From Micromonospora coriariae (GTDB lineage Bacteria; Actinomycetota; Actinomycetes; Mycobacteriales; Micromonosporaceae), in contig NZ_LT607412.1 in the NCBI RefSeq assembly GCF_900091455.1, forward strand, positions 4,464,001 through 4,528,000: a stretch of DNA of 64,000 nucleotides. The letters run 5' to 3'. The stretch's first letter is position 1, and each line of letters starts with the position of its first letter. The position numbers and the translations under genes are program-made. Positions 36,475 through 40,264 of the stretch are shown in pieces. Below the pieces are notes generated by a model. The model saw nothing but the letters and a program-made list of their open reading frames with translations. It ran no database searches and was not told where the DNA came from.

Positions 36475-37266
36475 GTGTGGCGGGAGCGGGACATCTACCA
36501 GCGGGCCGACGACGGCGGCGTGCGCCTCGGCGGTGGTGTGGCGCAGTGGCGGCTGCACGCCGATCACGTCGACGTGGCGGCCGGCGCCCCAGGCCGCCGG
36601 GCCCGGATCGAGGCCGAGCTGCTCCCCGTCGTTGTGGACCTGGACTCGACCGCGCTGGTCCTGCTCGACATGCAGAACGACTTCTGCTCCCCGGGCGGCT
36701 GGACCGACCGCTCCGGGCTGGACCACACCGCCTGCCGGGAGGCGATCCCGGCCGCGGTACGCGCGGTGCGGGCCGCCCGCCAGCTGGGCGTACCGGTGAT
36801 CTGGGTGTACTGGTACAACCGCTCGGACCTGCGCAACCTGGGCGCACCGACCCTCTGGTCGTTCAAGCACCGGCTCGAACAGGCCGGCATCGGAGAGCAG
36901 TTGGACCACGGACCGGTGCTGACCGAGGGGTCGTGGGGCGCGACGCTCGTCGACGAGCTGCGGGAGCTGGTGCGGCCCGAGGACGTGCAGGTGCCGAAGT
37001 ACCGGATGAACGGCTTCCACGCCACCCATCTCGACCAGGTGCTGCGCGCCCAGGGCATTGGCACCCTGCTGTTCGGCGGCGTCAACACCGACCAGTGCGT
37101 CAGCACCACTGTCGAGGACGCGTACTTCCGGGACTACGCCACAGTGCTGCTTACCGATGCGACCGCCACGTCCAGCCCCGCGTACTGCAAGGACGCGGTG
37201 GTCTTCAACTCGCAGCAGTGCTGGGGCTTCACCACCGACACCTACCGGTTCGCCGCCGCAGGGTAG
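36475..37266 (+). CDS. Isochorismatase-family cysteine hydrolase
   Basis: A 263-residue alpha/beta hydrolase of the isochorismatase-like family (nicotinamidase, biuret or carbamoyl hydrolases). The catalytic triad is visible: Asp in VLLDMQNDFCSPGG, Lys in VPKYRMNGFHAT, and Cys in GGVNTDQCVSTTVEDA. An N-terminal extension of about 60 residues (WRERDIYQRADDGG, GGGVAQWRLHADHV) precedes the domain, a layout shared by some actinobacterial homologues. GTG at 36475 with GGGAGGA upstream is preferred over an earlier start. The substrate is not predictable. Confidence 0.87.
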   Translation: MWRERDIYQRADDGGVRLGGGVAQWRLHADHVDVAAGAPGRRARIEAELLPVVVDLDSTALVLLDMQNDFCSPGGWTDRSGLDHTACREAIPAAVRAVRAARQLGVPVIWVYWYNRSDLRNLGAPTLWSFKHRLEQAGIGEQLDHGPVLTEGSWGATLVDELRELVRPEDVQVPKYRMNGFHATHLDQVLRAQGIGTLLFGGVNTDQCVSTTVEDAYFRDYATVLLTDATATSSPAYCKDAVVFNSQQCWGFTTDTYRFAAAG

Positions 37267-37269
37267 ACT
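37264..37269 (+). promoter_or_regulatory. -10 box of the leuS leader transcript
   Basis: TAGACT, overlapping the isochorismatase stop codon, lies 7 nt before the ATG of a 12-residue leader peptide, so that peptide is probably translated from a leaderless transcript. Confidence 0.6.
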
Positions 37270-37276
37270 GCGGTCC

Positions 37277-37315
37277 ATGGTCGGAGTCTTCCTGCTTCTT
37301 ACCGGGCCGTGCTGA
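37277..37315 (+). CDS. leuS leader peptide (MVGVFLLLTGPC)
   Basis: A 12-residue open frame with three successive leucine codons, CTG CTT CTT. CTT is rare in this genome, so ribosomes would stall readily when charged tRNA-Leu is short. The stop codon lies within the left arm of a hairpin, and a T-tailed terminator follows before leuS. The arrangement is that of ribosome-mediated transcription attenuation of a leucyl-tRNA synthetase gene. Translation is inferred from the -10 spacing and codon content, not proven. Confidence 0.7.
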   Translation: MVGVFLLLTGPC

Positions 37316-37340
37316 TGCGCTGACAACGCGACAGCACGGC
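37306..37340 (+). repeat. Hairpin 1 of the leuS attenuator
   Basis: Arms GCCGTGCTG (37306-37314) and CAGCACGGC (37332-37340) pair perfectly. The left arm covers the last leader-peptide codons, so a ribosome stalled on the leucine codons would disturb this fold. Confidence 0.65.
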
Positions 37341-37341
37341 T

Positions 37342-37367
37342 GCCCCTCCTGCGTGAGGGGCTTTTTT
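37342..37367 (+). terminator. Intrinsic terminator upstream of leuS (attenuator)
   Basis: GCCCCTC (37342-37348), a 6-nt loop, GAGGGGC (37355-37361) and six T residues (37362-37367). It is the clearest rho-independent terminator I see in the window and lies between the leader peptide and the leuS start, where it must be bypassed for leuS expression. Confidence 0.85.
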
Positions 37368-37423
37368 GTGCCCATCGCCGGCCCGGCCGGAGACGCCGAG
37401 ACGAAGCTTGACGAGGAGAGACG

Positions 37424-40264
<2,841 letters not shown>

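Follow-up and report, generated by a model that had tools for sequence, protein, structure and literature searches.

The leucyl-tRNA synthetase gene leuS in the window (the whole 64,000-nucleotide stretch of Micromonospora coriariae DNA that was analysed) is preceded by a compact leader, in which a promoter element, a small reading frame and two hairpins follow each other closely. The features are as follows.

37264..37269, + strand: -10 box TAGACT, which recurs as TANNNT in relatives and shares bases with the TAG stop of the gene upstream
37277..37315, + strand: leaderless open reading frame of 12 codons, MVGVFLLLTGPC, with stop TGA, from sequence reading and recurrence in relatives
37292..37300, + strand: Leu codons CTG CTT CTT, the second and third being the likely control codons, judged by conservation
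37301..37305, + strand: 5-nt spacer from the last Leu codon to hairpin H1, 5 nt long in 140 of 143 distinct leader sequences
37306..37340, + strand: hairpin H1, 9 + 4 bp, which holds the last codons and the stop, from fold energy and covariation
37342..37361, + strand: intrinsic terminator hairpin GCCCCTC-CTGCGT-GAGGGGC, from its fold and from covariation at model pairs 71-80 and 72-79
37362..37367, + strand: T6 tract, read in the sequence
37424..40264, + strand: leuS, leucyl-tRNA synthetase of 946 aa, matching TIGR00396 at 885.7 bits (cut-off 548.4)

The gene upstream lies on the same strand, is RutB/isochorismatase-like (below curated cut-offs) and ends at 37266, inside the -10 box. Seven bases separate TAGACT from the ATG at 37277, and the leader reads ATG GTC GGA GTC TTC CTG CTT CTT ACC GGG CCG TGC TGA, with TGA at 37313-37315. 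Transcription probably starts at the A of this ATG or at an adjoining base. A generic sigma-70 scan found no promoter, and the assignment of the -10 box draws on its recurrence among relatives, where the finder itself demanded a TANNNT. The arms of H1 pair 37306-37314 with 37332-37340, followed by an inner part of 4 bp (minimum free energy -21.4 kcal/mol, z -4.8), and those of the terminator pair 37342-37348 with 37355-37361 (z -3.1, as good in 2 of 200 shuffles). The leader RNA as a whole (37279-37370) folds better than 200 of 200 shuffles (z -4.05). An initial annotation had described a leucine leader peptide and attenuator here, and the -10 box, the leaderless 12-codon frame, the hairpin over the stop and the T-tailed terminator are indeed all read at the positions that it gave. 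The 56 nt that it counted between the end of the terminator and leuS are there as well (37367 to 37424), and the downstream protein is LeuS by TIGR00396. The same holds for the rarity of CTT (in a crude set of the window's genes, 16 of the 1679 Leu codons) and for the missing T-box. A T-box riboswitch can be set aside, as the window matches no Rfam family at gathering score.

This leader is not particular to one genome. Among 209 leuS loci drawn from the genus, family, order and class, some of them places fetched twice or near relatives, it is present at 193 by a loose rule (TANNNT, a start codon 4-10 nt after it, and a short reading frame with LL). A strict finder (TANNNT, 6-7 nt, ATG/GTG, 8-21 codons with LL) matched 189 of 208 natural leuS upstream regions, against 2 of 2080 dinucleotide shuffles. 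Once duplicates were removed, 143 distinct leader sequences were left; TANNNT sits 6-9 nt before the start in every one of them, the finder having demanded it 4-10 nt before. The 16 loci where no leader was found include all three of one family of the order (f8; L129, L130, L141), and a covariance model run on the 16 gave one weak match only (L192, 19.5 bits). With the leader and the start of leuS as a DNA query, a match was found in 151 of 151 genus genomes, in part with the leuS side alone aligned. The commonest starts of these alignments are query bases 22 and 23, that is 37261-37262, at the edge of the -10 box, and because of this the conserved block is taken to be the leader and not the upstream gene.

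Further away, model R1 at an E-value of 0.1 or better and with strict filters matched 71 of 148 class genomes and 21 of 198 phylum genomes, counts that include matches outside leuS: in at least 6 of the 71 (G344, G366, G395, G409, G422, G430) the best match lies elsewhere. An exact pattern of the control region has at least 119 matches in named genomes. Among the matches listed, leuS is the following gene, on the same strand, in 95. A further 6, all actinobacterial, have too little sequence after them to tell, with 21-349 nt left, and the other 18 come from records that carry no actinobacterial label (one just 'bacterium') and are attributed to chance. The LeuS behind the 95 listed leaders falls into two kinds, being more than 60% identical to that of the window in 89 cases and 37-38% identical in 5, with one in between. 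Nine loci (L220, L222, L224, L228, L242, L244, L267, L268 and L273) carry the leader before a LeuS type that is only about 40-45% identical; the leader therefore outlived the divergence or replacement of the enzyme. It is also seen (74.4 bits) before leuS on a contig labelled as a Chloroflexi MAG (L333), which may reflect mis-binning or transfer. In the relatives, then, both the Leu codons and the terminator on which the initial annotation had built its proposal are conserved, and together with H1 and the promoter spacing they are found again across the genus and the family and in much of the class.

The choice of codons is as regular as the layout. At the last Leu codon, 137 of the 143 distinct leaders have CTT and the other 6 CTC, whereas CTT makes up about 1% of the Leu codons in the crude gene set of the window. 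The penultimate one is CTT or CTC in 131 and CTG in 12. CTG also occupies the third position from the end in 103 leaders, the others having codons for Arg, Val, Gly, Ala and further residues there. By standard wobble rules CTT and CTC are both read by tRNA-Leu(GAG). A search of the genome gave 49 tRNA hits, and the nine longest were typed as one each of Leu(GAG), Leu(CAG), Leu(TAG), Leu(TAA) and Tyr, and four Ser. It is worth noting that the base after the last Leu codon (37301 in the window) is A in 130 of the 143 leaders, though the codon that it begins specifies Thr, Ser, Ile, Met or other residues.

Both hairpins show covariation. In 65 diverse leaders, 97.5% of the cells of H1 and the terminator are paired, compared with 38-61% on sliding, and there are 20 double-change cells where shuffles have 4.4. 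In 170 distinct aligned leaders, two pairs have the highest mutual information: one is H1 pair 34-60, with U-A in 81 and C-G in 80, and the other is pair 72-79 of the terminator, whose pair 71-80 comes tenth. All three pair in 99-100% of the sequences. Other high-ranking pairs are pairable in at most 74% (the third-ranked, 8-14, lies inside the reading frame) and look like reflections of shared ancestry. In 10 of 142 leaders (L116, L122, L124, L177, L178, L179, L182, L199, L202 and L207) the stop has moved upstream, to a UAG just before H1, and the CCGYG of H1 is unchanged after it. Since these ten leaders stop ahead of H1 and yet retain its sequence, H1 is kept as RNA and not as peptide. In 79 aligned loci selected by other means than the pattern, H1 spans 18-87 nt (median 35), and the linker that joins it to the terminator measures 2 nt in 67, 3 in 9, 1 in 2 and 4 in 1. 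The terminator loop (37349-37355 in the window) is largely conserved as CUGYGYG across families. Its TGYG, 12 nt past the foot of H1, resembles the polymerase pause consensus and would be a candidate hairpin pause site.

Leaders of this kind have been described in Streptomyces. Seliverstov (2005) predicted attenuators before leuS in S. coelicolor and S. avermitilis (PMC1262725), and in S. lividans a 2021 RNA-seq study reports leuL2, MRAVRLLLSEPR, before leuS, leaderless and with a hairpin and U-run (PMC8079986). The leader in the window is like LeuL2 in being a leaderless frame of 12 codons with LLL, a hairpin and a U-run upstream of leuS. The exact MRAVRLLLSEPR peptide stands before leuS in 6 of the 209 loci, and the window leader differs in its H1 stem (CCGUGC, not CCGCGC), its N-terminal peptide and its shorter H1 loop, being otherwise the same element. 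One covariance model scores the window at 96.9 bits and four MRAVRLLLSEPR leaders at 70.4-72.5 bits; its 65 training sequences include the window leader and two of these four, L145 and L146, and exclude the other two, L148 and L160. Because a single model covers the window and the MRAVRLLLSEPR loci, the window leader belongs to the known kind of leuS attenuator. What was known before is thus the Streptomyces attenuator, and what is added here is its spread, the keeping of H1 as RNA and the 5-nt spacer. In the open-licence literature, as far as the available parts of the sources go (PMC3896937, PMC9413887 and PMC2965389 among them), no description of the leuS element outside Streptomyces was found. 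The 5-nt spacer is claimed for leuS only. A paper by Lopatovskaya and others from 2010 (Mol Biol), reportedly on attenuation of amino acid and aminoacyl-tRNA genes, may list more leuS leaders.

Similar arrangements are known for the genes of branched-chain amino acid (BCAA) synthesis. In Corynebacterium, ilvB-II/ilvBNC shares a BCAA leader, a hairpin and a terminator with the leuS element, and the ilvBNC attenuator of C. glutamicum is likewise leaderless, with CUU named as control codon in the published model and with readthrough that needs translation (PMC10272879, PMC11857589). The Corynebacterium element differs in that its uORF spans P1 and that a specific antiterminator has been proposed and mutated (same sources), whereas in leuS no such helix is supported. 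In M. tuberculosis, attenuation of the ilvB1 BCAA operon yields a terminated leader RNA of about 120 nt (PMC13236596). The LEU element is another matter, being a leuA pseudoknot in which Leu codons pair with the leuA Shine-Dalgarno box (PMC1262725); the gene here is leuS.

Taken together, the leader is probably a ribosome-mediated transcription attenuator of leuS that senses the charging of tRNA-Leu(GAG). What is read directly in the sequences is the set of parts, how far they are conserved, the choice of codons, both hairpins and the spacing. A ribosome would translate the twelve codons of the leader. With ample Leu-tRNA it would clear CTT-CTT, melt H1 and get to the stop, so that the terminator could form and leuS would be off. 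With scarce Leu-tRNA it would wait with CTT in the A site, the polymerase would pass the terminator, and leuS would be transcribed. The stalling, the response to leucine and the polarity are what we infer. The attenuation that the initial annotation proposed gains from the recurring codons, H1 and terminator and from the S. lividans RNA-seq (PMC8079986), and the context of the exact-pattern matches and the 193 of 209 loci also count in its favour. For the leaderless BCAA attenuator of C. glutamicum ilvB, removal of the leader start codon lowered expression by 80% and replacement of the Val codons abolished the valine response (Morbach 2000, via PMC11857589). Against it stands the S. coelicolor ilvB leader, where codon substitutions were without effect, as told in PMC1262725, which calls the mechanism of BCAA attenuators in Actinobacteria unclear since that result. 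The 16 loci without a leader and the failure of the strict spacer outside leuS also count against the general claim.

How a waiting ribosome would let the polymerase through is a separate question. The E. coli trp, leu and his attenuators have control codons, a hairpin over the stop and a terminator, and a stalled ribosome masks segment 1. Here, in contrast, 5 nt separate H1 from the last control codon, and at its other end it all but touches the terminator. In work on translational stem-loops, a stem-loop whose first nucleotide lies at +12 or +13 (counting the P-site codon from +1) hinders tRNA binding in the A site, while one at +14 does not, and the dnaX spacer is 5 nt (PMC7282821, PMC8861025). 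When the A site holds the CTT at 37298-37300, position +1 falls on 37295 and the start of H1, 37306, on +12. As the fixed spacer puts H1 at +12, it is suggested that H1 and Leu-tRNA compete for the A site. The last step that we prefer, tentatively and as an unproven one, is that H1 brakes the ribosome at CTT while the looped-out RNA keeps the ribosome near the polymerase, where it blocks the terminator. H1 would slow the decoding of CTT and would remain closed during the wait, with its 3' foot separated from the terminator by 1-4 nt. Without H1, the RNA between +1 and the last T of the tract comes to 38 nt. Because a closed H1 leaves only these 38 nt, ribosome and polymerase would almost touch when the terminator should form, and the nearby ribosome would prevent its formation.

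The literature bears on this step from both sides. In models, a collided ribosome-polymerase complex is not compatible with termination hairpins, and antitermination at intrinsic terminators by coupled ribosomes can occur; the same review doubts the stability or physiological role of collided complexes (PMC7858274). Polyproline stalls raised termination at the pyrL terminator (PMC5021804, which uses the pyr leader terminator), a ribosome stalled upstream normally uncovering the terminator, and for this reason the proposed blocking needs H1 to shorten the path. In stem-loop work the length of the stem mattered, with 11 bp in dnaX and 12 bp in HIV (PMC7282821, PMC8861025). H1 has 9 + 4 bp, which counts against a brake at the A site. 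In attenuation of the pyrBI type, a ribosome running close behind the polymerase blocks the terminator. The preferred last step has a nearby ribosome as well, but a waiting one that is brought near by a hairpin. On this account an antiterminator would be unnecessary, and termination would occur where translation does not, as is told for C. glutamicum ilvB. A variant with H1 alone as a steric antiterminator was rejected, as it predicts high expression when there is no translation, contrary to the start-codon result in C. glutamicum ilvB.

The classical last step of the trp type leaves the sensor unchanged and has odds nearly equal to those of the blocking ribosome; we regard it as a serious possibility that nevertheless falls short of an even chance. 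H1 would be 1:2, and on a stall segment 2 would pair with segment 3, the 5' arm or loop of the terminator. In Seliverstov (2005) the leuS leaders of Streptomyces count as classical and have an antiterminator hairpin (PMC1262725), and mutants of C. glutamicum ilvB have been interpreted as showing a three-hairpin attenuator (PMC11857589). The sequence of the window allows GCG(A)CAG to pair with CUGCGU, the loop of the terminator, when both hairpins are blocked, and across the alignment the candidate 2:3 helix is slightly above shuffles, being reached by 38 of 500 in cells paired and 44 of 500 in covariation score. The helix GCG(A)CAG:CUGCGY nevertheless pairs in 78.8% of cells where column shuffles give 77.6%, and segment 2 against the terminator 5' arm and loop is not above shuffles (136 sequences, mean z +0.44). 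Partner swaps outside the genus give means as low in 47 of 200. In the 170 aligned leaders, near-complete pairing with high mutual information is found in H1 and the terminator only, and in no pair between segment 2 and the terminator. A ribosome on CTT would also mask little of H1, because its mRNA channel ends where H1 starts. The attenuation proposed by the initial annotation is supported, with one qualification: textbook attenuation calls for an antiterminator, and for the usual 2:3 kind no support was found. Two other pairings were tried and dropped: the 3' arm of H1 with the terminator loop or 3' arm is below shuffles in complementarity (median z +0.94 and +0.58), and segment 2 with the terminator 3' arm has a median z of +0.62 in the genus and -0.26 outside it.

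Were a real antiterminator to be formed by the Leu codons and the terminator 3' arm, the blocking ribosome would not fit. This pairing, of GCUYCUU with GAGGGGC, would again change the last step only; it is unlikely to act as an antiterminator in which a ribosome on the codons favours termination, or to do so in ribosome-free RNA only. RNAalifold chose it on the 65-sequence alignment, 94.3% of its cells pair, and its covariation score is reached by 11 of 500 shuffles. The complementarity beats shuffles in the genus (median z -2.8, 64 sequences) and outside it (-1.8, 72 sequences), which the first codons of the leader do not. But the helix has a single double-change pair, a count that 454 of 500 shuffles attain. 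In constrained consensus folds its score is about 11 worse than that of the terminator fold, and its pairs break where the terminator differs (L122, L124, L177). CTC would pair better than the conserved CTT. The direction is moreover wrong for a synthetase, and a ribosome stalled on the codons would cover the helix. The pairing may matter in ribosome-free RNA, or may reflect pyrimidine codons opposite a purine arm.

There is very little to be said for an arrest of the ribosome by the nascent leader peptide rather than by codon hunger. Most leaders do share a C-terminal P-C or P-R, but the ten sequences with the early stop end ahead of that part and keep the same nucleotides as RNA, and the N-terminal half of the leader varies. 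Least probable, by a little, is that the terminator belongs to the upstream gene, which ends on the same strand at 37266, 76 nt before the terminator starts, with a fortuitous reading frame and an unregulated leuS: the conserved block starts at the -10 box (37261-37262), outside that gene, and the leader and its codons recur in other families.

R1 also has weaker matches upstream of genes of the types ilvB (acetolactate synthase), leuA (isopropylmalate synthase) and cimA (citramalate synthase); their codon runs include Leu-Val-Leu-Ile, Leu-Leu-Leu and Ile-Ile-Ile. NCBIfam, applied to the first 330 residues, put a name to four of these genes; as the pieces are short, three of the four score below the curated cut-off. 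The rest were named by eye. The common layout is one of codons, a GC hairpin and an abutting terminator. In 19 leaders of the ilvB, leuA and cimA type, the last BCAA codon lies, by eye, about 2-7 nt from the folded hairpin, and it is because of this variation that the 5-nt rule is restricted to leuS. Before genes of the cimA type (L254, L255, L259, L262, L264) there are leaders with Ile codons (MTHWMIII*, MSFCLIIT* and MFYGLLIIGRRAG*), with the GC hairpin and the abutting terminator, and an isoleucine attenuator of cimA would fit these sequences; two of these genes are among those compared with NCBIfam. A literature search on attenuation of citramalate synthase turned up a single paper, on a methanogen. 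The same layout is seen before genes of the ilvB type (L257, L265, L266, L270, L272, L249, L250), with BCAA runs like CTC GTA CTT; there the 3' arm of the terminator is often ACGAGGGG or CGAGGGG, complementary, by eye, to the CTCG(T) of the codons.

If the preferred last step holds, which is a tentative reading, this would be an attenuator in which no antiterminator competes, with H1 as a frameshift-like brake and the ribosome as the blocker, and leuS, leuA, ilvB and cimA might share one design. The fixed spacing offers a cheap and concrete way to tell a control hairpin that works on the ribosome from one that works by way of an alternative RNA fold, in a leuS switch that is widespread among actinomycetes.
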